From Sipunculus nudus (Eukaryota; Annelida; Sipuncula; Golfingiida; Sipunculidae): a stretch of DNA of 64,000 nucleotides. The notes beneath the pieces are model-generated. The model saw only the letters and a program-made list of their open reading frames with translations, made no database searches and was not told where the DNA came from. Shown here one piece after another: positions 14,493-59,255 of this stretch. The translations under genes were made by a program, and so were the position numbers. Location of the stretch: positions 39,067,473 to 39,131,472 of the forward strand of contig CM049319.1 in assembly GCA_026874595.1 (NCBI GenBank), in the 5' to 3' direction. The stretch's first letter is position 1. Each line of letters opens with the position of its first letter.

Positions 14493-15794
14493 AGCTCAGC
14501 TGACTGTAAGTCATCTGTGGTTTAGGTATGGCGCTTTGTTCGTCTGGCTGTCTGGTCATCCGTTAGCAGGGTACAAATCGTAACTGCTGAACTTAGAAGC
14601 CTGTAACTGAAAACCTATGAAGGTCCATAAAAATCTCCTTGGATATCTGAAATCGAGTCACTGTGACCTATATCCTCTGAGCTATGGGGCTTGTAAGTAC
14701 CATCCAGAATAATAAAAAAATTTATACAAACCCTCCAATAACTTGATAATTAATGCATGGATTGTCATGAAACTTGCCTTGAATATTGACCATGACTAGT
14801 TGTGTCAGTTCCCGAAAAGTGGTGGCGCCTGTATTTTTTCTTATTCTTACAAATATTTTTCTATCAAATGACAACAATCATGTCAGTTTCTCAGCTGTTA
14901 TTCCATCTTGTGTCCCAAAACTTGGTGTGTTTATTGATCACAAGTGGATGCCCTATAGTAATCACCCTGTCTGTCTGTCTGTGTTTGTCTGTCTGTCTGT
15001 CCATCCGTTTATCGACAGAAATTTGTTTCCAGGTGATAACTCCAGGATTGATTGACATATGGATTTCAAACACGACTTACAAATGGTCCACCACTAAAGA
15101 AAGAACCTGTATGAATTTTGGGTCATGAGATCAAAGGTCAGGTTCACAAGACTCACTTATTTAAAAGATTATGGCTGCATTTTCAGCCAAGCTTTTCATC
15201 CCAAACATTCCATTCTGCGCATTTAGCTGACTTGCCAGTATGGGGAGAGCATAAATGAATTTGGGGTCACAAGATCAAAGGTCAAGGTCACAGGGGCCAT
15301 CTGTTCCCTAGTAAGTTTCCAGATGATAACTCCAGTTTAGTTCGACATATTGGTTTCAAACTTTTGTTATACATGGCTCACAACTAAAGAAGGAACCCTG
15401 TCGATTTTGGAGTCCAAAGGTCAAGGTCGCAGGACTCATTTCTGAAAAAGGAATGTGCATGCATTTCATGCCAAACTTTTCATCACTAACCTTCCATCTT
15501 CAAGATATTACTCACCTGCTGATAGGGGAAGATTCTTATAGATTTGGAGTCAAAGGGTCAAAGTCATAGGGCCCATCCAATCACAAATTAGTTTATGGAT
15601 GATAATTCTGCATTGGCTAGACAGATTAGCTTCAAACTTGATCTATTAATAACCCACCGTTTAGAAGAAACATTTTGATTTTCAGGGTCCAGAGGTCAAA
15701 GGTGTAGGTCACAAGACCGTCATTCTGAAAAATTTCTTCAAAATATCCTCATAGACAAATACAGCTGAGCGTTGAGACCCCTGGTTCCCTAGTT
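14493..15794 (+). mobile_element. Family A element, full length, GGTCA subtype
   Basis: The 5' end AGCTCAGC at 14493 has the hairpin partner; the 3' subTIR ACAGCTGAGC is at 15761-15770, followed by GAGACCCCTGGTTCCCTAGTT. The inside has one A-type unit, then three or more units of about 150 bp carrying AAAGGTCAAGGTCACAGG. The open frames at 14786-15128 are shadows of the CTGTCTGT-rich unit. Confidence 0.8.
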
Positions 15795-16283: not shown

Positions 16284-18123
16284 GGCTCAGCTGACTATAA
16301 ATCATCTGAGCTAAAGTTGTGGTTCATTGTCCATCAGTCCGTCCTTCTGTTAGACTGGCCTGTTTTGAAACCATTAGACCTAGGAATCCAAAATTTGGCA
16401 TACTGTTAGATGTCTCTAAGATATCATACCAATCAGAAAACTGGGTCACTGCAACTTTGTTCCTTTGAAAAAATTAAGGAAAAACCTCATTTTCCATTAA
16501 AAACCTATTCTGTCACTTCAGGACTGCCTAATATAAAAACCACTCATATGTTTTTCTTCATATTTAACATTAATATTTCCATATATATTTTTTTATATAC
16601 ATGTCAGAAATTAAGTCAGTATTACTTAATTTATAAAAGTTAAAGGCCCAAATAAAATGCACTTTATAAAAAATCAGAAAAGATATTTACTCACTTACCT
16701 TGATAGTGTTGAAGCAAAAGACTTTTTTTCAGGAATATAAATTTACTTTACCAAGATTCAATTGTATACCCAAAATTAGATCTGAATTTTTAAAACTTAA
16801 AATTATTAGCATTAATATAATATCAGTACCTTAAATTTTGTCAAACTTTAACCATGGCTTGTTTTTTTTCCTGTAAGAACATTTGATTGAATTTTCACAG
16901 CAAGTACATATAAGTATTTAATCTGTTAAATCCTGATTTTTTAAAAATAAAAGCTTAAAAAAGGCTAGTTATTGAAGTTTCTTTCAGAGGCTGTATTGTA
17001 TTTTTTTTTTATCTCCAGGCTGCCCACCTCTAGTCACTACAGGCCTGCCTGGGTAACATTATTAGTGATGCAACACTGGTCAAGCACCTCTGCTGTCACA
17101 GGTGTACAGTTATTCTAATGTCATCAACACCCCCTCCCCCCCCCCCCTTAGTTTACTGCAATAATTGTTATTGTTCAAACTGTATTTCTTTAAATGTAAA
17201 GCTGTTTCCATTCCAATGGACAAACCAATTCTTGAGTAATCAAGAAGATGCCATGTTGTGGTAATGTAGCTTTTTTAAAGCGAATTAATTTACATTCAAA
17301 GCATTTAATTAAAATATAATTAAATGCATCAGTAGGAATAATTTGATATTATATGAGCCAAATCATGGATAAATAAAGGTACAATTTAGAATTGTGAATT
17401 CTGGATCATGTTGTTTTCAGATGTGTATTGTTTTGCAAATTCAAAAAATATATTTTATAAAAAATTAATACATCTGTGTTCATAATGTGATGTCACCTGA
17501 CAAAATTAGCCATAGGTTCTGATGCAATTTAGAATTGTGAATCAACTTAAATATTCAGATATACTGGTATATATTAACCAGTAAATGTATAATCAAATTT
17601 AAAAACTTGAAATTGATGTAATAAAAATTATGAATATTTTTTTCCTGAAGCACCGTTGAATTAAATTTAAGATCTTGTATGTATTTGCAAAGGTGGTGTG
17701 ACTCCCACCATCGCCCACACCCCTCATTGAGTCCTTCCACCTGAGCACTGGGGACAGTAGTTTTATTGCAACTGTTAATATAAAATTGAAGAAAAATTGG
17801 TTTAATAAAAAATCGGATCGAACTGAACAAATGTGTTGTCTACAGTTGCTGAGTTCTCTACAACTTATAAAAAAGCCAACCAATGAGCATGGTAATAGTA
17901 CAGATCTTGTATTCACAAACTGCTGACATACTTCAGCTTCAACATTAGGAAACATATATGGTCAGATCACAAAATATAATTTGCAAAAATATCTTCAGTC
18001 ATATCAACCATCCATGGCCTATATTACCTTTTCCTCTTGGTCTTTATCTCCACTTGATATTATCTTAGATTTTTAACTTCAAGGTCAACTTCAGCTGAGC
18101 ACAGTGACGGATGGGTTCCTTGT
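16284..18123 (+). mobile_element. Family A element, long subtype with endonuclease remnant
   Basis: The 5' end GGCTCAGCTGACTATAAAT is at 16284; the 3' subTIR TCAGCTGAGC is at 18091-18100, followed by a degraded palindrome and CCTTGT. This subtype has few tandem units: a GAAAACTGGGTCACTGCAACT block, a C tract (about 17138-17150) and an EEP-domain remnant near the 3' end. Confidence 0.8.
17815..17985 (+). pseudogene. Endonuclease (EEP) fragment in family A
   Basis: It matches the better-kept fragment at 29395-29760: the GCCAACCAATGAGCATGGTAAT block, then GATCTTGTATTCACAAACTG (D-L-V-F-T-N in one frame). The triplets at 17962-17970 read S-D-H, the usual catalytic pair of this domain. Stops and frame breaks make it non-functional. 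Confidence 0.5.
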
Positions 18124-24800: not shown

Positions 24801-26182
24801 TTGTATCGCCAGACAAAGTCGGGATACTACGGTTTAGGATGGTCGCACCGCCGCAGCCGCAGGCGCAGGGATTCTGTTTGGAAGCGATAACTCAAAAAAA
24901 ATATTTTCAGATCTTTACCAAACTTGACATGTGCACAGATATAGGTGAGAGGACAAAGCCTATTTAAAATGGGTCATGGCCTTTACTAGGAGAGTGACCT
25001 TTGCCTTGAATAGGTCCATTTTGGGGGAAAATCACATACATTCTTAAATATCTTAAGAAATCTTGCATGGATTGATCCAAAAATCAAGTTGACCAAAGAT
25101 CTTGGATAGTGTTGTCATGTACCAGAAACTGGTGGCACCACCTGTTGTCCTTTTCTGGTTTTTGTGCTGTTTAATACCCCCATCATTGCCACTTAACAGT
25201 ACTGTGAGCATTATAAGTAAAAAGATAATGGACAGATTTCTTTCATATTATGCATATACATAGACATGGGTTATGGGATGATGTATATTTAAATTGGGGT
25301 CATGACCTTTCCAGTGAGAGTGGCCCTGACCTTGAATAATACCTTATTTGGTGAAAATCACACAAAATCATAAATATCTCAATAAGGGATGCATGGATTG
25401 GTAAAAAAATCAAATTGACTGAAGATCTTGGATAGGTTCGTCTTCTGCGGAAGGCACCAACTTCTGTCCTTTTCTTATCTTTGCGCCTGTTAATACATCA
25501 TTGCCACCTGACAGTACTGTTAGCATTATAAGTCTAAAACTAAAGAACAGTTTTTGCTGAAATTGTGCATGTCCATTGATCTTTGATACCTCCATCATGT
25601 ATTCAAGACTGGTGGTGCTGTCTGCAATCGTGATTGTGAGGCGTCAATTCGTATGTTTGCTTTCAGTTAAAATTGCTCATATCTCAGGAGTGGTTCAAGG
25701 TATTGGTCTGAAATTTGGCATGTCCATCCATCTTGGAAAGTTTTTTTGTAAACCAGACAAGTGGCAATACCTATCTTCCTGTTTCCATAAAATAAATTAA
25801 TGCTCTTTTCTCAGGAATGATTTGCTCTATTGGCTTAAAATTGTGCATAAAAATCCATAGATCTTGGATTCCTCAATCTTGTACTCTTGTACTCTGTCCA
25901 TCTTGGAAAATTTTCTCGTTAACCAGACAGGTGGTGCCACCTACCTTCCAGTTTGTGTGAAATAAATTAATGCTCTTTTCTCAAGAGTGATTAACCCAGT
26001 TGGCCTCTATATTTGGTGAAAAATATTGTTTCTCAAATTGATAGATGTAAGAAACCATAGTCGCTTGCCAAGTGTCAGTATATGCTGCTAAAGATTGGGG
26101 GCCTATCCTTAAAGGGGGGGGGGGGGGGGGTGATTAATTGTCTAATGATACTATGGCACCTGCGGTGCCAAGAAATATCTAG
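24801..26182 (+). mobile_element. Family D element, full length
   Basis: The 5' end is TTGTATCGCCAGAC (24801) folding with GGGATAC. The 3' side has the subTIR GTCTAATGATAC (26140-26151; 9 of 12 complementary to GTATCGCCAGAC at 24803-24814), then the hairpin GGCACC-TGC-GGTGCC (26155-26169), then AAGAAATATCTAG ending at 26182. The inside has repeated GACCAAAGATCTTGGATA and CTGGTGGCACCACCTG units. A poly-G tract of about 18 lies at 26114-26130. No coding capacity. Confidence 0.8.
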
Positions 26183-26444: not shown

Positions 26445-29400
26445 AGCTCAGCTGACTATAAGTCACCTGAGCTATAGTGGTGGTCCTTTGTCCGTCGTCC
26501 GTCCGTTATCAGGGCACGTTTTAAAAAACGTTGGACCTACGAATCAAAAATTTTACATACCATTAGATGTTCCCAAAATCTCCTACCATGCCGAAAATTG
26601 GGTCATTAGGACTTCATTCCTTCAAGATATTAAGGAAAAACCTCTGTTTTCCATAAAAAAGCCATTGTTACACTTCAAGGCTGCCTAATATCAAAACCAC
26701 TGATCTGTTCTTGGTCGTATTTAGTATTCATATTCTTCCATACATTTTCTATGAACATACCAAAAATTAGGTCAGTATTGGGTATTATTTTGAAGTTCTG
26801 GGCCCAAATATAATGCAATTTTTAAAAAATCAGGAAATATATTTACTCACCTAACATGAGAATTGCTGAAGCTGGAGACTTTTTTTTCAGGAATATAACT
26901 TTATATAATCAAGATTCAATTATTTACCCAAAATTAGATCTGAATTTTGCAAATTTTTCAAGTTATTAGCATAAATAAAAAATTAATACCTTAAATTTTG
27001 TCCAACTTTGGGAATGGCACAATTTTTCTCTGTAAGCACTGTTGATTTAATTTTCACAGCATATATACATAAGGATTTAATCTTTTAAAATCTGAAATTT
27101 CAAAGTAATTGATTGAAAAGAGTAGCTTTTATTCAAGTTTTCATACACCATGTCAAGTGTTGTCTACATTTGGCCCACCTAGTAGAACAGCCATCACTTG
27201 CATTATGTAACCCACCCCAGGCAGCTTGCCTCAGGCTCAGCTTGGCCACTACTAGCAGGCTTCCCCTCTGCCCTGCACCCCCCCCCCAGATGGTGCATTA
27301 ACTAGATGAATGTTATAATTTTCTGTATTTTATTTTATTCATGGCTATGCTACATTTTAGATTTTGTATTGTACCACCAGGGTTACAATGATTAAAGTGC
27401 ACATTTAATAGTGTCCACAAAGTGGTGTATTGCTATGAAAGTGTGGATGTTCATCAGGTAAGTAATTCCTTACTTCAGAAGAGTAAAAACTTCACCAGGT
27501 GTGAAATTGACTATTAATTCCGGTAATAAATTATAGCTGAGATTGTAATTAGCATAATGATATTGTTTGTCCCTCATTCAACCAAAAGTTTGTATACTTT
27601 ATTTAAAAAAATGTTTTTATTTTATCAAATTTACTGAATCTTTTATTTTATTTCGGTGAATAAAATTAAGCATGTACTGAAAACTCCAATGTGCAAAACT
27701 TTTTAATAGTGATTCAAGGAATAATCTTGTAGATTCCATGTTGTTGCATTATTTTCTTTTAAATTCAGTTTAAACATTTGTGATTTAAAAATAATAAAAT
27801 ATATGTGTATGCATAATATGACCCAATATGAGCTACACTCTGGTTATATAATGATTGCAACTTAGAATTCTAATTTTTTAACTTATATTTTCAGTTGTTT
27901 TATTACAAATTTATAAGACTTGTAAATAAAAAAAATGAATCAGATTTAAAACTATTGATGGAAAAAGTGGATATGCTAAAAAAATAGGCTTATATATAAA
28001 CTTAAATGCATTATTCCCTTGAAAGTGAAATAAATGTATTAGTCCATTCTGTCCACTTGCCTGTCCATCTGTAAATTTTTCATATGCATCACAGTATCTC
28101 AAAACTTTTACTGTTTCCTCTATATAGTTCATATGTATGTGCCAGTAATTTAGTCAGTATTATATAATTTAAAAAAGATATAATTTAAAAATATATTTTT
28201 AGAAAAAATTAAATACATCTGTGTTTCTATTAAATATCTATTTGCATACTTCAGGACTGCCAAATATCAAAACCACTCATCTGGTTTTCTTCATATTTAC
28301 CATAAATATTCCTCTATATAACTTAAATTTTGCCCAAATTTGACCATGGCGTGTTTCTTTCTTGTAAGAAAATTTGATTTACTTTTCACAGTCGATATAT
28401 ATAGATTTAATCTTTAAAAATTCTAAAATTTCAAACTTTAAAAATTCTGAAATTTCAAAGTAAAAGCTTAAAAATTGTTCTAATTATTGAAGTTTTTCTG
28501 AGGCTCCAATGTATTTTCATTTTGAACCTCCAAACCAGCCATATCTGGTCCCTACAGCCTTGCCTGGGTAAACTTATTAGTTATGCAACACTGCTGTCAC
28601 AAATGTAGAATCACATGGCAACCCTGACCTCCCCCCCCCCCCCCCCCCCCCCCCCCAATACAGAAATGTTGCATTAGTTACATACTTTAATTGCATTGCT
28701 GTTTCCGATCTAATGTATACAACTTTTCCTGAATCAAGTGTTATTTTCAGATATTTATTTTATTATTTTGCAAATTTAAAAAAATATATTTTAAGAAAAA
28801 ATAAATACATCTGAGTATATAATGTGATGTTGACTGAGCAGATTAACTGTAAATGTTGATGCAATTTAGAATTGTTAATTAACTTAAATTTTCAAATTTA
28901 ATTGATATATATTGTAAATGTATAGTAAAATTTATAAATTTTGTCCAAAATTTCCCTTAACAAAAAATTGTTGTAATAAAAAAATGAGGACCTAATGCAA
29001 ACATTCGTTCAGTATTTTTCTGCCTCAGTAGAATGGGAATTAAAGTGATTTGCTTTTTTTTCCAGCTCTCTGTCAGTTTTTGAATATTTAATAATTATGA
29101 ATAAAACTTCTTTTACCTGTAAGATTAAATTTTATATCCTGTATGCTAATGCAAAGGTGTTGCAACTTTCCTCACTCCCTGCCACTGAGTATTTGTTTAG
29201 GACAATATTCTTCTGGCAACTGCGTAAAATTTATAACTGGTAAATAAAGAAATAAATATACAGAGTTACAAAGGTGTTTTTAAACTCTCATCCTCTTCCC
29301 CCCCCCCCCCCCCCCATCAGGTCAAACAGCCGAGTCCCCATGTAACCGTTCACCACCACACAACACCAGATTTTGAGTCATCTCTTCTCTATATTCACAC

Positions 29401-30159
29401 TTAGACTCAGTCACTATATTGTTTTCCTCTATAGGTCACCCGCATGTCCCATCAGTAACTTCTTCTCTGAACTCCCAAGTTTTAGTCTCTTGACTGGACC
29501 TCAACCTGCCTATAGTGATCATGGGCGATTTCAATATTGACATTTCTAATATAATATATAACACCAAATTGACACAATTATGTCAACTCTTTAAATGTCA
29601 ACAACTAGTCAGAGAACCAACCAATGACCATGGAAATACCATAGATCTTGTCTTTACTAACTGTTTAAATGCTTCAGTTTCAACATTAGAAAACACATGG
29701 TCAAATCACAAGATATCCTTAGCAACAATCCTCCATTCTTCAATACAGATCAAACATGGCAACTTCTCACAGCTTAATCTACAATTTCTTCTCTATAGAT
29801 ACTTTTTGAGACATTCTATTTCCTTTCTAATTCAGCAACAACTGCTTCCCAAAACATATGTTTTCTACTTTTCCATAAATATTTTGATTTATTAAATGTG
29901 TATTTTTATACTTGCAAATCTCCACTTCCTTCCTCTGCAATTTACAACATCTGGTCATTCCCATCGCAATATTTTAGTCACACATTCTTGTTCATATTTA
30001 AATTACTGATACTTCTATATAACTATTCCGCTCAACTACATAATTAATACAAAAAATTACATCTGTCAAAATGAAATCTTACAGACCTACATACAACAAT
30101 AGTGACACTATTATATCTGTCTCATTCAGCTGAGCGCCGTGACCCATGGATCCCTTGTT
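26445..30159 (+). mobile_element. Family A element, long composite copy with endonuclease remnant
   Basis: 5' end AGCTCAGCTGACTATAAGT at 26445; 3' subTIR TCAGCTGAGC at 30126-30135, then GTGACCCATGGATCCCTTGTT. Internal blocks occur twice (CTGCCTAATATCAAAACCACT at about 26683 and a variant at 28256), showing an internal duplication or fusion of two copies. C tracts lie at 27287, 28629-28656 and 29298-29315. The 3' third holds the best-preserved EEP fragment of the window. Confidence 0.75.
29395..29760 (+). pseudogene. Endonuclease/exonuclease/phosphatase (EEP) domain fragment
   Basis: An open frame from 29515 to 29895 starts with the EEP core strand and motif L-P-I-V-I-M-G-D-F-N-I-D (G-D-F-N-I-D at 29524-29541), then P-T-N-D-H-G-N-T-I-D-L-V-F-T-N ending at 29661, then W-S-N-H-K at 29698-29712. 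An R-S-P block (about 29431) lies upstream in another frame, so a frameshift separates them. The canonical S-D-H catalytic triplet reads S-N-H, so the active site is lost. After about 29760 the frame is no longer recognisable. The family is the apurinic-type endonuclease of CR1-like retrotransposons, also carried by Helentrons at their C-terminus. Lying 0.4 kb from the 3' end of a Helentron-like element favours the second source; a nested retrotransposon fragment is the alternative. Confidence 0.7.
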
Positions 30160-30480: not shown

Positions 30481-31309
30481 ATGCCCCCGCCACAAAGTGG
30501 CCGGGGCATATAGTTTTACCCATGTCTGTCCTTCCGTCATTCCGTCATTAAACAGTTGTACAGACTTTTTTTCGCAATGCCTGCAGATATTGGCCTGATT
30601 TTTGGTGTGTGGGCAGATAATGACCAGTTGCAGATCGAGTTTGCGTTTTGTCCCGGTTGACCTACTTTTGACCATTTTACGGCTCCTTAACTTAGAAAAT
30701 TTCATGAAAAATAGAAATTTTCATGACAAATACACATGTAGGGACTTTTTTTCGCAATGCCTTCAGATATTGGCCTGATTTTTGGTGTGTGGGCAGATAT
30801 TGACCAGTTACAGATCAAGTTCGCGTTTCGTCCAAGTTGACCTACTTTTGACCATTTTACGGCTCCTGAACATAGAAAATTTCATGAAAAATAGAAATTT
30901 TCATGAAAAATACACATGTAGGGACTTTTTTCGCAATGCCTGCAGATATTGGCCTGATTTTTGGTGCGTGGGCAGATAATGACCAGTTACAGATTGAGTT
31001 CATGTTTTGTCCCAGTTGACCTACTTTTGACTGTTTGATGGTGCCCTAACATAGAAAATTTCATAGAAAATATAAATTTTCATGACAAGTGCACATGTAC
31101 GGACTTTTTTTCACAATGACTGCAGATTTGGGCCTGATTTTTGGTTTGTGGGCAGATAATGACCAGTTACAGATCATATTTGCGTTTCGTCCCTGTTGAC
31201 CTACTTTTGACCATACGACACCTCTTGAACTGAAATTTTTTTACAAAATTTCACAAATGTTTCTAATTTGCCCCAGGCGGTGGCATTCGTGTCGTTCTGA
31301 CACATCTAG
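30481..31309 (+). mobile_element. Family C element, full length (829 bp)
   Basis: The 5' end is a strong hairpin, ATGCCCC-C-GCCAC-AAA-GTGGC-C-GGGGCAT (30481-30509). SubTIRs TGCCCCCGCC (30482-30491) and GGCGGTGGCA (31276-31285) are 9/10 complementary. The 3' hairpin GTGTC-GTTCT-GACAC (31289-31303) is followed by ATCTAG ending at 31309 and a T run. The inside is four tandem units of 180 bp. Confidence 0.85.
30562..31268 (+). repeat. Four tandem 180-bp units in family C
   Basis: GACTTTTTTTCGCAATGCC or a variant recurs at 30562, 30742, 30922 and 31101. Each unit has ATTGGCCTGATTTTTGGTGT, GACCAGTTACAGATC and AGAAAATTTCATG blocks. Confidence 0.95.
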
Positions 31310-31315
31310 TTTTTT

Positions 31316-33993
31316 AGCGAACCTGTGAGCTTATGCGATGGTGCGGCGTCGTCTGTCGTGCGTTGTGCGTCGTGCGTCGTCTGTACGTTAACCATAGCTA
31401 TCTCAAAAACGGCAGGAGCTAGCATCACCAAATTTTTTGCAAATAATCAGTTATTCAAAAAACTATATCGGATTTTGTTTATTTTTTTTCTAACTGCATT
31501 TTCTTAGATTTTATAGGGAAAAAGCTAAAAAAGCTTTAAAAATCTTCTTCTCCGAAACTGCTCAGCCAAATTGTCTAATATTTTACAGAAATGATCCCTG
31601 GAACAATCTTTCTCAAGTTTGTTCGAATGGTTCCAGTTCGGAGATTTTTGGCCGAGTTACAGGAAGTTGAACTTTGTTAACTGTGCAAAAAAGCATATTA
31701 AAATTTATATCTCAAAAACTGCTGTAGCTATCATCACCAAATTTTATGCCAATGTTGGTCACATAGGTCATATCTGAAATTGAGGTTTTGGTGGCGCCAC
31801 CTGCATCGGCCTTTTTTGTACGGGGTCATCAGTGCCTGTATCACACTGAGGGCTACAAAAAACTTCCTCTCTGAAACCAAATGGCTAAAATGTTTAATAT
31901 TGCACAGAAATGATCCTAGGGTAGTGCTTTTTGAAGTTTGTTCAAATGGTCTCTTTTCAGTGACTTATGGTTAAGTTATGGGAAGCTGAATTTAGTCATA
32001 TGCCATAACAGCCCATTTTAGCTCAGTGGATACAAAGATCTTCTTCTCAAAAACCACTGGGCCAAATTCTTAAATCTCACACATTAATTATCCTCAGATG
32101 TTGATAATTCAAGTTTGTTCAAATGGTTTTGGTTCAGTGCTTTTTGGCTCATTTATGGGAAGCTGAACGTAGCCAATTTGCTGTATCTTCCTATACGAGT
32201 TATAAACCTGCGAAACGTTTTTCAACTGATGCCACTGAAGCCAGTTTGTTAAATATTTTACAAGAATAATCCCTACAGTAATTCTGATAATAATTGTCAT
32301 AAATGGTTCCACATGAATGATTTTTGGCTGAATTATGGAGATTGAATTGAGTCATTTTACCATACATGTTAGCTGTGTGATGCTGTTACATCAAGCCTAG
32401 CACCAGTTTATCAGCATCTATTACATCAAGCCACTAGACATTTAGATTTCAGGTAATCTTTGGTTAATATTGACAAGAAAGTTTTTTTAAGAGCTTTTAA
32501 AAAATTTAGATTTATGATTTAAGTTATTTATCATACCAGACAATGTTACAATCATGGATAAAAATTTTTGGTATCCCTACTCAACTTAATTCAAGAATTT
32601 GCCATCAATTAGATAAATCTGTATTTCAATTTTGCTTTCAGTATGCATCCGTAATAATTTTACATATATTCCTGATTTCTTTTTATATAAAAAGTCAGCT
32701 GAAAAGCATTTTGTATTGGGAAAATAAATTTCAAAATTATTTCAAGTAGGGACCACTTAAATGTGCAGATGGCAGCACTTGGTTTACCATTGGCAGGTTG
32801 CCAGTGCATTGATGTTGACCATTAGCCAAGATGATGTCAGCGCTATAAATAGTTTTGGCACAGTGCCAGGATTGGAAGAAGTGCAGCAAGGTATAGGTCA
32901 AGAGTTCAATCAGTGCAGTAGCTGCATTCTATTTATAGCTTTGGCAGACTGCTCACTGCATCATATTTGGCACCAAAGTTCAGCCTGAATCTATTTATAG
33001 CTTTGGCAGACTGCCAGCTGTGTCAGATTTTGCAACAGGTCAAGAGTTCACTCAGTGCAGCCAGGTACAGGTCAAAAGTTCACTCAGTTTAGCCAGGTGC
33101 AGGTCAAGAGTTCACTCAGTGCAGTAGCTTGAGGCAGCAATTTGTCACAGGTCACTCGGGGGCAACTGCCTTACTCACCTGAGCCTTGTCAGCCCAGTGC
33201 ATCAAACTCTGGGGAAGTTTGATGTATTGGACTGATATTTTGACCTGCCTATGCATCTTTGATGGTATTCTCATTTACAAGACAGGTGTTGCCACCTTCA
33301 TTGACTTTTGCAGTGTGTGCACCTGCTTATTTCTACAGAGGAATTTGATACATCAGCCTAAAATTGGGCATGTTTATACATTAACTGGGTAGCCCTCATT
33401 TTTGGTTGACCTCTGACCTTTCTTCTCTGCCCAGCGTCCATTTGTGCGTCTGTTTCCACGCATAAACCCACATATCTCGGCAACCGTTTGACCGATAAGG
33501 CTAAAGATTTTGCACAAATGTAGCCCTTGGAAAGCTTTATAACATACACTAAAAATGGTGGCGCCACCTGCAACCATTTTTGCACAGCATCATCTGTTCA
33601 TCTGCCTTGGGATAAAATCACTCATATCTCAGCAATGGTTTGACTTATTCACCTGAAATTTCGCCACCTGCATTCACGTTTACGCTGCAGACATCCATGC
33701 TAATATTCAACACACCTCACTCTATTCCCCTTGCCACTTAATCCATGCCTCACTTCACCCGTGCCACTCTGATTTCTGCGGATACACATAGTCGCTTGTC
33801 GACTACCCATATTCTAGTTTTAAAATGTCCAAGTCTGAAACTTGCAGGTCCATAACGTCCATTTTGCTGAAATCATAATAACTAAGGTAGATATGCAGAA
33901 CTTAAGAGGATCAATATTAAATTTTAAAAATTAAAACCTCCATTCATACCCCTAAACTTTGCACAGGTTCGCATTGGGCCTGTAGGCCTTGTT
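31316..33993 (+). mobile_element. Family B element, full length (2.68 kb)
   Basis: 5' subTIR GCGAACCTGTG (31317-31327) and 3' subTIR CACAGGTTCGC (33962-33972) are perfectly complementary over 11 bases. The 3' end has the hairpin GGCCT-GT-AGGCC (33977-33988) and ends CTTGTT at 33993. The inside has a GGAGCTAGCATCACCAAATT unit repeated with changes (31400-32340), a CAGGTCAAGAGTTCACTCAG array (32850-33190) and about 155-bp units ending GGTGGCGCCACC. It starts seven bases after the C element ends, and part of it (about 33400-33823) resembles the 3' part of family F. Confidence 0.85.
33400..33823 (+). mobile_element. Family F 3' fragment inside B
   Basis: It runs from GACCTCTGACCTTTCTTCTC to the F 3' end: GCGGATACACATAGTC, GCTTGTC, GACTA, then CCCATATTCTAG at 33823 and TTTT. 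It matches 42467-43750 in order but with fewer units. Confidence 0.65.
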
Positions 33994-38303: not shown

Positions 38304-40928
38304 AGCTCAGCTGACTATAAGTCATCTGAGCTATAGTCGTGGTCCATTGTCCGTCGTCCGTCCGTTTGTCCGTCCGTCCGTCCGTCCGTAGATGTGGCAC
38401 GTTTTGAAACCGTAAGATCTAGGAATCCAAAATTCGGCATAATGTTAGATGTCCCCAAGATCTCCTACCAAGCCGAAAACTGGGTCTTTGCAACTTCGTT
38501 CCTTTGAAGTTTGAGAAATTAAGGAAAAACCTCAATTTTTTATTTAAAACCTATTTTCACACTTCAGGACTGCCTTATATCAAAACCACTCATCTGTTTT
38601 TCCTCATATTCACCATAAATATTCCTCTATATAGTTCCTATGTACATGCCACAAATTATGTCTGTATTATTTAATTTAAAAAGGTTATGGGCCAAAACAT
38701 AATGCATTTTGTAAAAAATCAGGAAAGATATTTGATCACTTAACACAAAAAATGTTAAAGCTATGGACCTTTTTTCCAGTAATATAACTTTAATTAATCA
38801 AAATTAAATTGTATACCCAAAATTAGATGAAAATCTTTTATTTTTTTAAAATATTAATAAAAATAAAAAATTGGTACCTTAAATTTTGCCCAACTTTGAC
38901 CATGACACGTTTTTTTCCTGTAAGTACTGTGGATTTAATTTTCACAGCATGTTTTTGTTAGCATTTCAACTGTTAACACCAAAAATTTGAAACCACTTGA
39001 TCAAAAACTGTAGATTTTAATCAAGTTTTCAAGCACCATGTAACATATTGTTTACATCAAGCTAGTGTTATGCAGTTTGCAAGAGCTCAGCTCCCCAGCT
39101 TCAGCTCTATGTTCCTTAAATTCAGCATACAGTTATATGTCTCCAAAATCCCCTACCATGCCAAGAATTTGGTCACTAGGACTTAATACCTTCGAGATAT
39201 TAATGAAAAACTTCATTTTTCCATTAAAAACCCATTGTAACACTTCAAGACTGCCTAATATCAAAACCGCTGATCTGACTTTAATCATAAATAATATACA
39301 TATTTTTCATTCTCTATGCACATGCCAGAATGATGTCAGTATTGCGTAATTGTTTTAAGTTATGGGCCCAAACATAATGCACTTTGTAAAAAATCAAGAA
39401 ATATATTTACTCCCTTAACAAGGGCATTGCTGAAGCTAGAGATTTTTTTGTCAGGGATGTAACATTATTTAATCAAGATTCAATTGAATACCCAAAATTA
39501 GTTCTGAATTTTTCAAATTTTATAAGTTATTAGTATAAATATAAAATTAGTACCTTAAATTTTGCCCAACTGTGACCATGGCATGTTTGTTTCCCGTGAG
39601 CACTGTTGATATAATTTTCATATCATGCACACATAAGGATTTCAGCTTTTTAGTTTAGAAAGCTGAAAGAAATTGGCCAAAAATTGTAGCTTTTATTAAT
39701 GTTTTTTATGAGACCCTGTCAGACTTTGGCTCTCTCCAGCCCCTCTTGAGTCACCTGTATGTTGACCTTGTTGACCTTTCATCAAATTATGCACGCTTGA
39801 GGCGAGAATCCAGGCAGCTTATGGCCAGCCACAGTTGATCCAGGTGTCCAAACCAACTCATCTAGTAGTTTTAACCAACAACATAACAATAAACAATAAA
39901 TTAATAAATTTTTATTGGTTTTTAATAACAAATTAAAGAAAAATAGAAAAGGAATTCGTTAGTTTTTAATAACAGGAAATTAACTTGCAGTTACTGATGA
40001 TATAAGAATCTTGTATTGATGGGTAGAATGTCACATATTCCAAATAACACCATGCAGTCACCTATGGCATTTTTCAGTTCAATTTTAATGATAAAGAAGT
40101 AAATCATATTATTCATTACTAATCATTAGGGATCATATGAAGGATATTAATGATAGACAAAGATGCAGTTGATAATATTAATCTAGATTCCTACTGTGTC
40201 TAGTGTGTACATTGATGTGAAATTAGTCCAAAATGAATTTTTTACAGTTATTTTTTAATATAAATAAAAGCCATAAAACCAGGTACTTATGATCATTATT
40301 TAAATGTGTGAATTTTGTATATTCTGGACTCTCAACATCATTGTTTGGTGAAAACTGAATAAATACCAGACATGGTGCGAATACTTTGTAATTGTTTTTA
40401 AATACGAATATGATTATGTACTCCATTATAAAATTTCTTGCATAAAGAATGGGAATTCAGGTAAAAATGAAAGTATATGAATACTCGTGCAAATACTTTC
40501 AAAATGTATTCATGAATGCATTCATGAATATATTCTTTAATATTATTTTGATAATCATATCATTTATATTTCATTTTAAAAAATCATATGATTCTCTTAT
40601 TATTTTTAATAAAAATTATATTTGGGACAATATTTGTAATTATTTTAAATAAATAGTTAAACTCTTATATTATATGTTCTGCTTATAAGTTATATGGCCA
40701 AGTCAAAATCTGTGTGACAATAGTACTCCATTTGTTAATAAAATAAATGAAATCAATCCTCTTCCCTGTCTCCAAAGGTACTATCAAAATCATACATAAG
40801 CTAAACAACAACAACTCATAATACAGCTTATATTTATTACCACACAAAACCAGCATGTGCCTCATTTCTAAATAATATTTTTTTATCATGTATAACAGCT
40901 GAGCGTGGTGACCCATAGGTCCCTTGTT
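38304..40928 (+). mobile_element. Family A element, long subtype, full length (2.63 kb)
   Basis: 5' AGCTCAGCTGACTATAAGT at 38304 after a T run, then a CCGT tetranucleotide array (about 38354-38390). 3' ACAGCTGAGC at 40895-40904, GTGACCCATAGGTCCCTTGTT at 40928. It contains two internal ~800-bp blocks, each starting with TTAGATGTC and ending with TTTTCACAGCATG-like sequence. It is nearly identical along its length to 47291-49912, but the flanks differ. Confidence 0.85.
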
Positions 40929-42282
40929 CTTAAAAATTCTCTATTTTTAGTTAAGAATTAGCATTTATATCCATCCTGTAATGGTGGTTTAACAGATGCC
41001 TGCTTGTGCCATACACCATTCTTTTCAGAAATTTGTATAAAACAGAATGACACCAAATACAGAACAGTTTTAAAAACAGATAATTAGTATCCTTCTGTTT
41101 TCTAACCTTTACCCCAGAAATTTTGATTTTGTGAAACAATTACCTGACGTTGCCAAAAAACTTTATATTTATTCAGTTATCAAGGTGGGGTCTTGAAATA
41201 TCCAATGGTAAAGGCTTCAACAAGTTTATAATGGTTTAGCAAAAGCAGTATCAAGAAAAATTTTTTTTTTTTTTTTTTGCAACCAATATTTTATAAATCT
41301 GTGCAAACATTGTGTGATCTTTCAACCAGTTAATATCCTTAGAATAAGAGTTTAATTCATATATGTATATACTCTTTAACTAAATATTATAAAATCTAAA
41401 ATAACCTTTTACTTAAAATCAGTAACTCAATAGAACTTTTCCAAAAGGAAATCCTCAACAGGTGGAGAGACGACCTCCCTACCTATATTCCAGATTAACT
41501 GAGAAAGAAAAGATGGCACATTATTCAGTGTTGCATATGTATATGTCGAGGCCCAGATTAGAATCTGGCCAAATTTAAAACTGGGCCAGCCCAGATCAAA
41601 ATTTTGATTTGGACTGGCCCAGATCAAAATTCTAATCTGGGCCAGACCAGTTTTAAATTGGGCCAGCCCAGATCAAATTTTGATCTGGGCCGGTCCAGAT
41701 TAAAATCCTGTGGTGAAGACTTCCGGATTTAAATCTGGTCTGGACTGATTTTAAACTGGGCTTGCTTAAGTTAACAATCCTGTGGTGGACTGATTTTAAA
41801 CTGGGCCGGCCCAGATTAAAATTTTAATCTGGGCTGATCAAGATTACAATCCTGTGGTAGACTGATTTTAAACTGGACCAGCCCAGATCAGAATCCTAAT
41901 CTACTCCTAGGCTAGCTTGATTTTTATCATCTTAAATCAGATAATACAGTAAACATCTATTCCAGATACACCATTTTGAAGGGCACAAAACACATAATGA
42001 ACAAAATCATTTAAAATATTTAAGTGAGGAAAAAGCTAACAAACAAATGTAATGTGCTTTTTTGGTTTCATCTATTCTTCAAGCATGTAAGTTCACATTT
42101 GAACTTCACCTAAACCAACTACCATAATTAATCACAGTTTAGAATATGTGTCAATTCTGATACATCTACTTGACATGTAATCATGTTTAGGACTACCAAC
42201 AAATTTGGAGGTTATCTGTTTGAAAGCAAAACATAATGGCATACAGTACAAATAAACTCACTGTAAATGTCCAGTATGTTAA
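40929..42282. other. Unique intron with poly-T and a palindromic minisatellite
   Basis: A T run at about 41262-41278 and the GGCC/GATC array at 41546-41912 (listed separately). No gene. Confidence 0.55.
41546..41912. repeat. Palindrome-rich GGGCC/GATC minisatellite
   Basis: Variants of CTGGGCCAGCCCAGATC, AAAATTTTGATC, TTTTAAACTGGG and AATCCTGTGGTGGACTG recur 8-10 times, with near-perfect local palindromes such as GATCAAAATTTTGATT. The spacing is irregular (30-70 bases). Single relatives occur at 45745-45800 and 52615-52685. Confidence 0.85.
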
Positions 42283-43750
42283 TTGTATCCACAAAAACAA
42301 AGTTTTTTGCGGATACTATGTTTTTGACCTGGTTCCGCCGCCTCCACAACCACCGCTGCCGCCCAATTCATTTCTGGAGAACTCCTCTGAGACTACTGGA
42401 CTGATTTTTCCAAAACTTACACCAATTATCGGGTCACATGTGAACTGGTGCCTAATCAATTAGCGTTGACCTCTGACCCTTCCTCTCTGCCCAGCGTCCA
42501 TTTGTGCATCTGTTTCCACACATAAACCCATGTATCTTGGGAACCGTTTGATTGATCAGGAAAAAAAAAAGTACAAATGTAGCCCTTGGATAGCTTTATA
42601 ACATACACAAAAAATGATGGCGCCACCTGCAACCATGTTTGCACAGTGTCGATCAGTTTGTCTGCCTTGGGTTAAAATCACTCATATCTCTGCAGTGGTT
42701 TGACTAATTCACCTGAAATTCGGCATTCGTATACATCCTGGATAGCTATCTTGATTTTATGACAGGTGGTGCCACCTACATTCACTTTCACGCTGCAGAC
42801 ATCCATGCTTATATCTCCGGATTGGTTTGATGTTATCTTCCTGAAAATTTGCATGTATATAGATCTCACATAGCTCTTTATTATACACAAAAATGGTGGT
42901 GCCACCTTCAACCATTTTTGCACAGCGACCGTCTGTTTGTCTTCTGTGGGATGAAATCACTCATATCTCGGCAATGGCTTGACATATCTGCCTAAAATTT
43001 TGCAGGTTTATACATCCTGGACAGCTTTCTTGATTTAATGACAGATGGCGCCACTTACATTCTTGTTTACGCTGCAGACATCCAAGCTCATATCTCGGGA
43101 ACCATTTAACTGATTGGGCCAAATTTCTGCATGTGTATAGATCTCACGTAGCTTTTTATCATACACAAAACTTGAGGGACCACCTGCAACCATTTTTGCA
43201 CAGCATCCGTCTGTTTGTCTGCCGTGGGCTAAAATCACTCATATCTCAGTAGTGGTTTGGCTTATCCGCCTAAAATTTTGCATGTTTATACATCTTGGAT
43301 AGCTTTCTTGATTTTTTTGGCAGGTGGCGCCACCTACATTTATATTAAAGCTGCAGACATTCAGGCTTATATCTCAGGACTGATTGGACATATCCCCCTG
43401 AAATTTTGCATGTGTAAAGATCTCACATAGCTCTTAATCATACACAAAATTGGTGGCGCCACCTGCCACCATTTTTGCACAAGTTTTTCTGTTTGTCTGC
43501 TGTGGGATAAAATCACTCATATACATGCCTAAAATTTTGCATACGGTATGTATACAACTTGGACAGCTTTCTGGATTTTGTGTTAGGTGGCGCAACCTAC
43601 ATACACATTTCGGCTGCAGACATCCATACTAATAATATGCAACACACCTCACTCTATTTCCCCTTGCCACTCAATCCATGCCTCACTTCACCTGTTCCAC
43701 TCTGATTTTGGCGGATACATGTAGTCGCTTGTTGACTACCCATATTCTAG
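42283..43750 (+). mobile_element. Family F element, full length (1.47 kb)
   Basis: 5' end TTGTATCCACAAAAA (42283) folds with GCGGATAC at 42309-42316. SubTIRs GTATCCACAAAAA (42285-42297) and TTTTGGCGGATAC (43706-43718) are 11/13 complementary. The 3' hairpin GTAGTC-GCTTGTT-GACTAC (43721-43739) is followed by CCATATTCTAG ending at 43750 and TTTT. The layout parallels family D, including GTTCCGCCGCC soon after the 5' hairpin. Confidence 0.8.
42792..43620 (+). repeat. Tandem 279-bp units in family F
   Basis: GCTGCAGACAT recurs at 42792, 43071, 43350 and 43613 (steps 279, 279, 263). Each unit is two half units of about 140 bases, each with a GGTGGCGCCACC-like palindrome (perfect at 43323-43334 and 43452-43463). 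Confidence 0.9.
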
Positions 43751-46958: not shown

Positions 46959-49900
46959 AGCGCAGCTGACTATAAGTCATCTGAGCTATAGTCGTGGTCC
47001 ATTGTCCGTCGTCCTTCCGTCTGTCCGTCCGGCTGTCCGTAGATGTGGCACGTTTTGAAACCATAAGACCTAGGAATCCAAAATTTGGCATAATGTTAGA
47101 TGTCCCCAAGATCTCCTACCAAGCCCAAAAAACTGGGTCTTTGGGACTTTGTTCCTTTGAGAAATTAAGGAAAAACCTCAATTTTTAATTAAAAACCTAT
47201 TTTCACACTTCAGGACTTTCAGCAAGGTAACTTTAATTAATCAAAATTATGTCGTATACCCAAAATTTGATCAAAATCTTTTAAATTTTTAGCTCAGCTG
47301 ACTATAAGTCATCTGAGCTATAGTCGTGGTCCATTGTCCGTCGTCCGTCCGTCTGTCCGTCCGTCCGTCCGTCCGTCCGTCCGTAGATGTGGCACGTTTT
47401 GAAACCGTAAGACCTAGGAATCCAAAATTCGGCATAATGTTAGATGTCCCCAAGATCTCCTACCAAGCCGAAAACTGGGTCTTTGCAACTTCGGTCCTTT
47501 GAGAAATTAAGGAAAAACCTAAATTTTTTATTAAAAACCTATTTTCACACTTCAGGACTGCCTAATATCAAAACGACTCATCTGTTTTTCCTCATATTTA
47601 CCATAAATATTCCTCTATATAGTTCCTATGTACATGACAGAAATTATGTCTGTATTATATAATTTAAAAAAGTTATGGGCCCAAACATAATGCATTTTGT
47701 AAAAAATCAGGAAAGATATTTGATCACTTAACACAAAACATGTTAAAGCTATGGACTTTTTTTCCAGTAATATAACTTTAATTAATCAAAATTAAATTGT
47801 ATACCCAAAATTAGATCAAAATCTTTTAAATTTTTTAAAATATTTACAAAAATAAAAAATTGGTACCTTAAATTTAGCCCAACTTTGACCATGGCACGTT
47901 TTTTTCCTGTAAGTACTGTGGATTTAATTTTCACAGCATGTTTTTGTTAGCATTTTTTCTGTTAACACCAAAAATTTGAAACCAGTTGATCAAAAACTGT
48001 AGATTTTATTCAAGTTTTCAAACACCATGTAACATATATTGTTTACATCAAGCTAGTGTTATGCAGTTTGCAAGAGCTCAGCTCCCCAGCTTCAGCTCTC
48101 AGTTCCTAAAATTTGGCATACAATTAGATGTCTCCAAAATCCCCTACCATGCCAAGTATTTGGTCACTAGCACTTAATACCTTCGAGATATTAATGAAAA
48201 ACTTCATTTTTCCATTAAAAACCCGTTGTTACACTTCAAGACTGCCTAATATCAAAACAACTGATCTGACTTTAATCATATATAATATACATATTTTTCT
48301 ATACATTCTCTATGCACATGCCAGATATGATGTCAGTATTGCGTAACTGTTTTAAGTTATGGGCGCAAACATAATGCACTTTGTAAAAAATCAAGAAATA
48401 ATTTACTCCCTTAACAAGGAGATTGCTGAAGCTAGAGATTTTTTTGTCAGGGATGTAACATTATTTAATCAAGATTCAATGAATACCCAAAATTAGTTCT
48501 GAATTTTTCAAATTTTATAAGTTATTAGTATAAATATAAAATTAGTACCTTATATTTTGCTCAACTTTGACCATGGCATGTTTGTTTCCTGTGAGCACTG
48601 TTGATATAATTTTCATGTCAGGCACACATAAGGATTTCAGCTTTTTAGTTTATAAAGCTGAAAGAAATTGGCCAAAAATTGTAGCTTTTGTTAATGTTTC
48701 TATGAGACCATGTCAGACTTTGGCCCTCTCCAGCCCCTCTTGAGTCACCTGTATGTTGACCTTGTTGAACTTTCAGCAAATTATGCATGCTTGAGGCGAG
48801 GCATTAACTGGGGCTCCAGCCACAGTTGATCCAGGTGTCCAACCCAACTCATCTAGTAGTTTTAACCAACAACATAACAATAAACAATAAATTAATACAT
48901 TTGTGTTTGTTTTTAATAACAAATTAAAGAAAAATAGAAAAGGAATTTGTTAGTTTATAAAAACAGGAAATTAACTTGCAGTTACTGATGATATAAGAAT
49001 CTTGTATCGATGGATTAGAATGTCATGTATTCCAAATAAAACATGCAGTCACCTATGGTATTTTTCAGTTCAATTTTAATGATAAAAAAGTAAATCATAT
49101 TATTCATTACTAATGATTGGGGATCATATGAAGGAAATTAATGATAGACAAAGATGCAGTTGATAATATTAATCTAGATTCCTACTGTGTCTAGTGTGTA
49201 GATTGATGTGAAATTAGTCCAAAATGAATATATTACATTTATTTTTTTAAATATAAATAAAAGCCATAAAACCAGGTACTTATGATCATTATTTAAATGT
49301 GTTAATTTTGTATATTCTGGATTCTCAACATCATTGTTTGGTGAAAAAAACCCGACATGGTGCGAATAATTTGTAATTGTATTTAAATACGAATATGAAT
49401 ATGTACTCCATTATAAAATTTCTTGCATAAAGAACGGGAATTCAGGTAAAAATGAAAGTATATGAATACCAGTGCAAATACTTTCAAAATGTATTCATGA
49501 ATGCATTCATGAATATATTCTTTAATATTATTTTAATAATCATTTCAGTTGTATTTCATTTTAAAAAATCATAAGATTCTCTTATTATTTTTAATAAAAT
49601 TTATATTTGGGACAATATTTCTAATTTTTTTAATTAATAGTTAAACTCTTATATTATATGTTCTTCTTATAAGTTATATGGCCAAGTCAAAATCTGTGTG
49701 ACAGTAGTACTCCATTTGTTAATAAAATAAATGAAATCAATCCTCTTCCCTGTCTCCAAAGATACCATCAAAATCATACATGAGCTAAACAACAACAACT
49801 CATAATACAGCTTATATTTATTACCACACAAAACCAGCACGTGAATCATATCTAAATCATATTTTTTATCATATATAACAGCTGAGCGCCGTGACCCATA

Positions 49901-51152
49901 GGTCCCTTGTTTAAAATATTAGCAAAAATATAAAATCGGTACCTTAAATGTTGCCCAAATTTGACCATGGCACGTTTTTTTCTTGTAAGTATATTTAATT
50001 TATTTTTCACAGCCAGGATACATGTTGATTTAATCTGTTAAATTCTGAAATTTGAAAGTAAAAGCTTAAAAATTATTCTAATTAATGAAGTTTTTCAGAT
50101 GCTCTAATGTATTTGCATTTTGTATATCCAAGACCCCACTCTTGCTCACAGCCTTGCCTAGGTAACCTGATTAGTGATGCAGTGCTAGCAGATCACACCT
50201 GCTGTAATAAACATACACTTATTCTCATGGGCCCTACCCTAACACCCCCAAACACCCCCCATCCCCCCCTCCCCCACCACCACCACCATCATCAATTATA
50301 TTGCAATACATGGTTTGTTATTGTCAACTGTATTTCTTTAAATGTAAAGCTGTTTTTGATCCAATGTGCACAACTTTTCTTGAAATATTAATTCATGAAG
50401 TAATCCAAGAGATGCCACATTGTCTGATGTAGCATTTTTAAGAAAATATTTCCTTTTAAATAATTAAACAAAATATAATTTAACCTATCAGTAGGTATAA
50501 TTTGATAATATATGAAACAAATCATGGAAAAATAAAGGTGCAATTTAAAATTGTTAATTCCGGAGTGTTATTTTCATATATTTACTTCTTTGCAAATTTA
50601 AAAGATATATTTGATAAAAAAAAAGAAATATATCTGTGTGCATAATGTGATGTTACCTGACTAAATTAAGTGTAAATGTTAATGCAGTTTAGATTTGTGA
50701 ATCAATTTAAATATTCAGATATGTATGATATACTGTTTATATAAAGGAAAATTTAAAAACTTAAAAAAAATGACTTAACAAAAGAAAAAATGCAAATATT
50801 TGTTCATTATTCTCCTATCTCAGTAGAATTGAAATTAAAGTTATTTGCTTTGTTTTCCATCTCTCTCCCTGTTTTTAAATATTTAAAAATAATTTAATTT
50901 AAATTAAATTTTATCCTTTAAGTATATGCAGAGGTGCTGTAACTCCCACCAGTCCCTGTAAGCACCATTAAATTTAATTCTGTATTCTGTATTTATATTC
51001 AAAAGTGTTGTAACTCTCCCCACCCCCCAGTCATTGAGCCCTAGTTCCTGAGCACTGAGGATAGTATTTTTATTGCAACTTCAAAAAATCTAAGGTGACG
51101 CAATTAAAACTGTCACAATCAGCTGAGCCCGGTGACCCATGGGTCCCTTGTT
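46959..51152 (+). mobile_element. Family A element, middle layer of the nest
   Basis: 5' AGCGCAGCTGACTATAAGT at 46959; left part to 47290, resumes at 49913 (TAAAATATTAGCAAAAATA); 3' TCAGCTGAGC at 51119-51128, then CGGTGACCCATGGGTCCCTTGTT at 51152. About 1.57 kb without the inner copy. It includes a C-rich tract (about 50250-50280). Confidence 0.85.
47291..49912 (+). mobile_element. Family A element, innermost copy, 2.6 kb
   Basis: It starts AGCTCAGCTGACTATAAGT at 47291, has a long CCGT array (about 47341-47382), and ends ACAGCTGAGCGCCGTGACCC...CCCTTGTT at 49912. The empty site is known from the paralogous copy at 47821-47870, which reads CTTTTAAATTTTTTAAAATATT without interruption. The insertion is therefore within a T run, with no other duplication. 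Confidence 0.9.
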
Positions 51153-54835: not shown

Positions 54836-55565
54836 ATAATTGTATTAATGATAATAACAATAATAATTATTTCTTTTATAAGGCAGAAAATCCACCAGGA
54901 ATATTGTCCTTCAATACTGGATATAACTGGATAAGGGAACAAATGGAATAATATTAGTTAAATTACCAATAAAAAAAAAAAAATTAAGTTTGAAACAATA
55001 AAGATTGGATTTTCAATAGAATCCATAACACTGAAGTTCATAGACCACAGTATCTGTAAAACTGTCTAAACAAATGAGTTTTCAGATGAATTTTAAAAGA
55101 AGTCAGTCTTCATTGTAATCGCAGCTACTGCAGTATTTCATTCCATGACCAGTTTGGGACCATGCAGCTACACCAAAGGCTCCCATGCAAATGGTTGAGG
55201 ACTTTGTAAATGGAACAACTGATAGATCCTGATTTGGAAGAGTGAAGCTCACTATGTTGTTCATATGGTTGTACATATATATCTAAATATACCTCTGCAG
55301 CTGTCTAAACTAAATTCTACACACTCATTGATCATGGTCAATATGCAGACCTATATAAGCTTTTGGTTGTTCTTTTTTACTCATACATAAAGAAATATCA
55401 ACACTTCAGCTTTTACTCCTAGTCCAGGCCATGTTCAGTACTCTTGCTGACTAAGCTTGAACCTCATCCGTATCTCATACTTTCTTTAATTAATATTGTC
55501 ATACTCCTGTGGCTGTTATTTCTTATGCCTGCTCATGTCTGATTTCTGTTAGTAGGGGACAAATC
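54836..55565. other. Unique intron, nothing recognised
   Basis: Includes a simple A run near 54970. No gene seen. Confidence 0.5.
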
Positions 55566-55893
55566 ATAACTGTTAGACCTTTACAGTTCCATCTTGATAT
55601 CCAGGTATAACTGTTAGACCTTTACAGTTCCATCTTGATATCCAAGTATAACTGTTAGACCTTTACAGCTCCATCTTGATATCCAGGCATAACTGTTAGA
55701 CCTTTACAGCTCCATCTTGATATCCAGGCATAACTGTTAGACCTTTACAGTTCAATCTTGATATCCAGGTATAACTGTTAGACCTTTACATTTCGAACTT
55801 GATATCCAGGCATAACTGTTAGACCTTTACAGCTCAATCTTGATATCCAGGCATAACTGTTATACCTTTACAGTTCCATTTTGATACCCAGGC
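55566..55893 (+). repeat. 41-bp minisatellite, 8 units
   Basis: Units start ATAACTGTTAGACCTTTACA at 55566, 55607, 55648, 55689, 55730, 55771, 55812 and 55853. The unit is a local amplification of family A sequence (AAATCGTAACTGTTAGACCTAGAAACTTC...ATCCAGG), and A-like sequence flanks it on both sides. Confidence 0.95.
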
Positions 55894-59057: not shown

Positions 59058-59255
59058 TTTAGAGTACAAAGAGTGATTCACTATATTTGCCCCCATATTT
59101 GGTGAAAAATATTGTTTCTCAAGTTGATAGATGGGAGAAACCATAGTAGCTTGCAAAGTGTCAGTATATGCTGCTGGAGATGGGGGGCCTATTCTTAAGG
59201 GGGGGGTTAATTGTCTTTGGATACTATGGCACATGCCGTGCAAAGAAATATCTAG
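59058..59255 (+). mobile_element. Family D 3' fragment
   Basis: It matches 25985-26182 (TTTGGTGAAAAATATTGTTTC, GTGTCAGTATATGCTGCT, poly-G) and ends with subTIR GTCTTTGGATAC (59213-59224), hairpin GCAC-ATGCC-GTGC and AAATATCTAG. It directly abuts the 3' end of the A copy. Confidence 0.8.

Follow-up and report, generated by a model that had tools for sequence, protein, structure and literature searches.

Elements at 30481-33993 and their relatives in the window

We analyzed 64,000 nt of the Sipunculus nudus genome (assembly GCA_026874595.1, contig CM049319.1, positions 39,067,473 to 39,131,472, forward strand; hereafter the window), together with the end structures of five families of interspersed elements, A, B, C, D and F, that it contains. 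A first-pass annotation had described these families as having one end layout in common, made up of a subterminal inverted repeat (subTIR) just inside each end, a 3′ hairpin and a terminal CTTG or CTAG followed by TT. The interval 30481-33993 consists of two such elements end to end, C and then B, with six T between them; coordinates are window positions, and the elements and element parts given below are on the + strand. Element C (30481-31309; 829 bp; terminus CTAG) contains three to four 180-bp tandem repeats. It opens with the hairpin ATGCCCCCGCCACAAAGTGGCCGGGGCAT (30481-30509; fold z -5.0), within which lies the 5′ subTIR (30482-30491), and closes at 31276-31309 with the subTIR GGCGGTGGCA, the hairpin GTGTC-GTTCT-GACAC (31289-31303) and CTAG. 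Its start base is identical in independent copies, one within another B copy and one within a Rep gene. The TTTTTT spacer (31310-31315) is the target flank of B, which occupies 31316-33991 (2,676 bp; terminus CTTG), has the 5′ subTIR GCGAACCTGTG at 31317-31327 and ends at 33962-33991 with the subTIR CACAGGTTCGC, the palindrome GGGCCT-GT-AGGCCT and CTTG. The same two ends bound at least 15 copies of B whose flanks are different. Inside B, at 33405-33817, sits a captured and internally deleted piece of F that stops at the F 3′ CTAG. The other B copies examined have this trapped F terminus (CTAG|TTTT) too, and the B subfamily that carries it has itself been amplified.

Element F itself (42285-43750; 1,466 bp) has a 5′ hairpin at 42285-42316, 279-bp tandem repeats, and a 3′ subTIR (43706-43718) that is followed by a hairpin and CTAG. 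Element D (24803-26182; 1,380 bp) has GTATCGCCAGAC on its 5′ side and GTCTAATGATAC on its 3′ side, where the hairpin GGCACC-TGC-GGTGCC precedes CTAG; a second D 3′ end (subTIR, hairpin, CTAG|TT) lies at 59207-59255, and a further D 5′ end, GTATCCCCAGACAAAGTGGGGATAC, at 63454-63478, with a body that extends past the window edge. Family A is represented by A1 (38304-40926), by A2 (47291-49909), which is nested within another A element and has paralogous empty sites, by three elements with endonuclease relics described below, and by two elements of a different body type (4900-5988 and 14493-15792). Little is common to the several A body types past the first 25-33 bp. Family A has GTCC microsatellites 3′ of the 5′ hairpin. 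The statement that the shared ends enclose unrelated bodies holds for A, the front of B, C and D, but B includes the F piece, and D and F have an 81-bp repeat in common. We found no coding capacity for transposition proteins in these families, in which the longest stop-free stretch (133 codons) is an endonuclease relic, and comparison of Rep proteins with the window gave no Rep relics.

A shared end layout in the window and genome-wide

The subTIR pairs quoted in the first-pass annotation are all present in the window (A, GCTCAGCTGA/TCAGCTGAGC, 10/10; B, 11/11; C, 9/10; D, 9-10/12; F, 11/13), as are the claimed termini, CTTG|TT in A and B and CTAG|TT in C, D and F. When compared with random positions within the window, the subTIRs of A and B are rare (0.1-0.9%) and that of C is marginal (3%); those of D (27%) and F (10%) are within chance, and most 3′ stems do not stand out when taken singly. 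The window thus supports the shared layout in part, because the D and F subTIRs and most 3′ stems could be chance occurrences there. Short inverted repeats and CTTG or CTAG are frequent in AT-rich DNA, and an explanation of all shared features by coincidence would draw on just these D and F subTIRs and several of the stems. The decisive comparison came from the host assembly (1.43 Gb), which was searched with exact 3′-end patterns, the subTIR and terminus being fixed and the gap length limited (for B, the hairpin arms were fixed too), and with the reversed patterns as controls. There were 20,071 3′ ends for A, 4,238 for B, 1,975 for D and 7,611 for F, against 0 for each reversed control, while 3′ ends of C were rare (22 against 2 in the reversed control, with the window's own 9/10 version as the pattern). 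5′ ends numbered 3,189 for D and, counting one F form, 1,195 for F. The consensus subTIRs of D (5′ GTATCCCCAGAC, 3′ mostly GTCTGGGGATAC) are exact complements at 12/12 positions, as are those of F (5′ GTATCCGCCAAAA, 3′ TTTTGGCGGATAC) at 13/13, and the consensus match is 10/10 in A and 11/11 in B. As these genome-wide consensus ends pair perfectly, the window-level doubt about D and F is settled; loss of the subTIR from consensus ends, named in the first-pass annotation as contrary evidence, did not occur. We rejected coincidence on the basis of these thousands of copies, the zero control matches and the perfect consensus subTIRs, and regard its probability as close to nil. The shared end layout of the five families is therefore confirmed, and it is stronger genome-wide than in the window.

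Matching of subTIRs is a property of the family. When all 5′ ends were scored against all 3′ consensus ends, the own pair scored 10, 11, 8, 12 and 13 in A, B, C, D and F, respectively, and cross-family pairs scored 3-6; the true family pairing is the best among 120 pairings. The suggestion that subTIR pairing specifies which ends belong together is borne out as far as this within-family match is concerned, but strict pairing is doubtful. A 3′ variant of D, GTCTGGCGATAC, occurs in about 17/100 D 3′ ends among the matches listed, and the corresponding 5′ form with GCC, GTATCGCC, in 0/100 D 5′ ends among the matches listed. Covariation was sought in the D subTIR and none was seen, the 3′ GGC variant having no 5′ GCC partner. 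One subTIR mismatch is therefore tolerated. Two further observations concern the ends of C and D in the host genome. At C10:30925755 and C11:34562098 the C subTIR GGCGGTGGCA is followed by another hairpin and then CTAGTT, possibly marking a sister family. At C1:1407714-1418671 (+), five D 5′ ends with the common left flank CATATAATT are spaced about 2.6-2.8 kb apart in tandem, perhaps as a tandem duplication or a rolling-circle concatemer.

Ends were folded as single-stranded DNA and compared with shuffled sequences. The 5′ hairpins claimed for A, C, D and F are all strong (z -4.5, -5.0, -2.8 and -4.7, respectively), and ACAAAG occurs in the hairpin loop of C, D and F. B gave no 5′ hairpin on folding, as the earlier description had implied, which sets a limit to the shared layout. 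The 3′ hairpin had been ascribed to all five families. It is convincing in D (z -3.3), F (-2.5) and C (-2.1), but weaker in B (-1.5) and at the level of shuffles in A, although a palindrome is present in all five; that of A, TGACCCATGGGTCA, is conserved yet weak. Compensatory changes, proposed earlier as a check on the folded 3′ ends, provided no clear support, as double changes across copies were not in excess in D and F and were weakly so in A.

The insertion boundaries are T-rich on both sides. TT, which was not demanded by the search pattern, follows CTAG in 98-99 of the 100 F copies listed, and beyond these two bases the flank is random; in the flanks of sampled copies, A and B likewise have CTTG|TT at the 3′ junction. 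The left flank is TTTTT before B and most A copies and T-H-A-T-T, whose second position is hardly ever G, before D and F, and the 5′ ends (AGC, ATGCC, GTATCC) all follow T-rich flanks. For the composite of C and B, the filled site CCACCTGTATTTTT|TTCTAATTTT could be compared with CTGTATTTTTTTTTAATTTT in an uninterrupted copy of the surrounding repeat, and the A2 insertion (47291-49909) has several empty counterparts in the host. Neither comparison revealed a target duplication beyond the uncertain number of T, so that the fixed-length duplications named in the first-pass annotation as contrary evidence are absent at both. The 5′ junction of the C copy in the Rep gene of locus L036 was confirmed against the uninterrupted copy in L038. 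The gene is of Helentron type, and the C element (L036:1-467) lies within a run of A in it, in reverse orientation.

These boundaries also bear on whether the families could be cut-and-paste miniature inverted-repeat transposable elements (MITEs) with imperfect inverted repeats. Like MITEs they are short, non-coding and high in copy number and have inverted repeats near their ends. However, the repeats are subterminal and asymmetric rather than terminal, the hairpin and CTWG are on the 3′ side only, and the empty sites without fixed-length duplication contradict such an origin for A and for B and C. We rejected this explanation, which we consider very improbable.

Endonuclease relics in family A and Rep genes of the host

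Three A elements have homologous endonuclease relics, in sense orientation and 114-385 bp before the 3′ end. The longest is that of A4 (element 26445-30157; relic 29406-29772, 385 bp before the A 3′ end), a frameshifted remnant of the C-terminal half of an exo/endo/phosphatase endonuclease with YRSP, GDFN and SNH motifs. The relic of A5 (element 57166-59054, with its 3′ end at 59023-59054) lies at 58698-58940, 114 bp before the 3′ end (53% amino acid identity, E 2e-20), and that of the third element (16284-18122) at 17867-17959, 163 bp before the 3′ end (58% amino acid identity, E 4e-8). In the latter two elements, the stretch from the relic through the terminus aligns as one block. Between the A4 and A5 relics, nonsynonymous divergence (dN) is 0.25 and synonymous divergence (dS) 1.0, with a bootstrap ratio of 0.26 (0.09-0.54) and no replicate above 1, so that the relics descend from a protein that once functioned. 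Helentrons are marked by an endonuclease at the C-terminus, encoded immediately ahead of the 3′ end (PMC4067079). From their sequences, we read the relic-bearing A elements as probably derived by deletion from a Helentron that had A-type ends.

Alternatively, an ancestor of A may once have captured a fragment of a retrotransposon lacking long terminal repeats (non-LTR), in which case descent of A from a Helentron with an endonuclease would not have to be assumed. Such captures do occur, and the Pfam match, which has a low score, is named for retrotransposon endonucleases. But the relic is found just before the 3′ end and on the sense strand in three elements, in two of which it aligns together with the terminus in a single block, and it has been under purifying selection between elements. 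A non-LTR fragment would moreover be expected to retain the reverse transcriptase side, and no reverse transcriptase follows the relic. We therefore regard capture as improbable, and descent of the relic-bearing A elements from a Helentron as the better account.

The host genome has at least 143 matches to Helitron_like_N (PF14214), several of them in uninterrupted frames of 1,100-2,426 amino acids. The commonest Rep lineage combines DUF6570, OTU and Rep domains. Of the 28 loci with a readable Rep motif 2, 26 have RGSPHxH, and the serine in this motif separates Helentrons from Helitrons (PMC4067079). A degenerate Rep at C11:5901141-5904578 (L010), which coexists with these Helentron-type Reps, has RGLPHVH, the canonical Helitron type. 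At least six Rep lineages could be told apart at the DNA level, one of which is dominant among the loci examined. The link of A to an endonuclease relic is what is new here, along with the intact Helentron-type Rep open reading frames in the genome. In the search for autonomous Rep/helicase elements with the same ends, suggested by the first-pass annotation, no partner emerged from 30 Rep loci of about 3.6 kb each, which stop short of the C-terminus. The one end that these loci contained, that of the C copy in L036, points away from Rep, and L038 shows it to be an insertion into the gene; a break 5′ of the Rep in L014 led nowhere. Comparison by eye of C and D ends with Rep positions, a weak comparison, placed none within 15 kb among the matches listed.

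One rolling-circle machinery or several

The shared layout is real but of a kind already known, the architecture of HINEs (non-autonomous Helentrons), in which unrelated bodies stand under shared ends, as in mites and flies (PMC4067079) and in eleven Cg_HINE elements of the Pacific oyster that have the same kind of layout (PMC7492417). The families have the subTIRs (about 11-15 bp by the HINE definition), the 3′ palindrome and the TT or T-rich target without duplication, and are non-coding; an inverted repeat complementary to the 5′ subTIR, usual in HINEs but not universal, is strong in A, C, D and F and absent from B. Together with the link of A to an endonuclease, this upholds their earlier description as Helentron-type non-autonomous elements. 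The likeness to Cg_HINE extends to the length of the oyster subTIR (11-12 bp), the inverted repeat complementary to and beside the 5′ subTIR, a GTCC-type microsatellite, central satellite-like repeats, the 3′ subTIR with palindrome, the oligo-T target without duplication and the differing bodies, and a single subTIR mismatch, tolerated in D here, is common in the oyster (PMC7492417). In contrast, the subTIR sequences differ, B is without the 5′ inverted repeat, and no partner could be related to the oyster elements whereas A is tied to an endonuclease relic. With HINE/DINE-1 elements the families share subTIRs, the 3′ stem-loop, a TT target with a variable number of T and no duplication, and a probable relation to Rep/helicase/endonuclease elements as deletion derivatives (PMC4067079). 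They differ in the distance of the 3′ subTIR from the end (30-45 bp here, 38-60 bp in the mite) and in the CTAG terminus of C, D and F, and the likeness here rests on layout rather than on identity to an autonomous partner.

Other relatives resemble the families in part. In Helitron2 elements of Fusarium (FoHeli), the inverted repeats are likewise asymmetric and carry hairpins; the left flank of FoHeli1/2 is TNAT, similar to the T-H-A-T-T of D and F, and that of Helitron2 in general is TTTT, similar to A, B and C (PMC5148889). However, the FoHeli 3′ end is ATTTT and not CTAG, and Helitron2 is without an endonuclease (PMC5148889). Canonical Helitrons (Helitron1) also have a hairpin that lies a few bases inside the 3′ end, and the CTAG of C, D and F fits their CTRR, but the CTTG of A and B does not; the 5′ TC is absent here, the target is T-rich and not A|T, and subTIRs are present.

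Taken together, A, B, C, D and F are very probably separate non-autonomous rolling-circle families of Helentron type (Helitron2/HINE), with A descending from a Helentron proper (Rep/helicase/endonuclease), of which A4, A5 and the element at 16284-18122 would be deletion derivatives. They count as five families under the published rule, because an identical subTIR of at least 11 bp defines a family (PMC4067079). By analogy with the published Helentron model, a Rep/helicase supplied in trans would recognize the subTIR, nick at the 5′ T junction and peel off one strand; peeling would stop at the 3′ palindrome and CTWG, and the strand would be joined into a TT site. If only the ends are read, any body could be carried along, be it satellite-like repeats or the captured F piece. 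The simplest role for the subTIR would be as a site that Rep recognizes, occurring at each end and in opposite orientations. The two ends may also pair directly, although the data do not require it; most likely, matching subTIRs mark both ends for the same Rep, and for this reason several related machineries sorted by subTIR are to be expected.

The first-pass annotation had instead inferred one rolling-circle machinery behind all five families, with end structure as the feature recognized; on this view, a single Rep/helicase would suffice whatever the subTIR sequence. The assignment to Helentron-type elements stands, and a single machinery could account for the layout common to all families, for the TT that follows CTWG in A, B and F, for left flanks alike in outline (T-H-W-T-T) and for the dominance of one Rep lineage among the loci examined. 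Yet the subTIRs differ and match only within families, termini and target flanks are family-specific, Rep lineages number at least six at the DNA level, and different subTIRs have been taken to denote different families, each with its own partner (PMC4067079). We thus consider one machinery for all five unlikely, and several related machineries more likely than one.

Several results weigh against separate Helentron-type families as we describe them. The subTIR of C, at 9/10, is that of the window copy and not a consensus. The 3′ hairpin of A folds no better than shuffles (z +0.7), and hairpin covariation within families is not significant. The Pfam scores of the A4 relic (E 0.0015 and 0.0042) are below curated cut-offs. 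End motifs scanned in the 30 Rep loci revealed no autonomous element with the ends of any family, and no empty site was found for D and F.

A finer division is conceivable, and we put it forward tentatively. Two rolling-circle sub-types with subTIRs and one layout may coexist in this genome, an endonuclease-linked CTTG type that enters T-runs (A, B) and a CTAG type, with the terminus of canonical Helitrons and the ACAAAG loop in the 5′ hairpin. The target of this second type would be TNAT|T in D and F, similar to that of fungal Helitron2, and C, which has a CTAG end and a T-run target, would be a bridge. If so, intermediates between Helitron, Helitron2 and Helentron would stand side by side, and subTIR, terminus and target choice could each be traced to a different part of the proteins. 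Some animal genomes consist to a large extent of passive Helentron derivatives, and the self-moving partner of the oyster HINEs was unresolved; here, sequence evidence ties family A, with more than 20,000 exact 3′ ends, to an element that bore an endonuclease. The presence in one genome of five families with different subTIRs, two termini, two target flanks and several Rep lineages permits a direct test of what Rep recognizes, be it the sequence of the ends, their structure or the two together.

Other repeats were observed in the window. Long inverted copies of B/F-type repeat bodies lie at its opposite ends (349-1608 and 62300-63269), with arms of 60-209 nt and 76-88% complementarity. Between A and F elements, at 41571-41902, palindromic units of 28 and 72 bp of the CTGGGCC...GGCCCAG type are arrayed, and a 41-bp unit forms a tandem array at 55483-55933.

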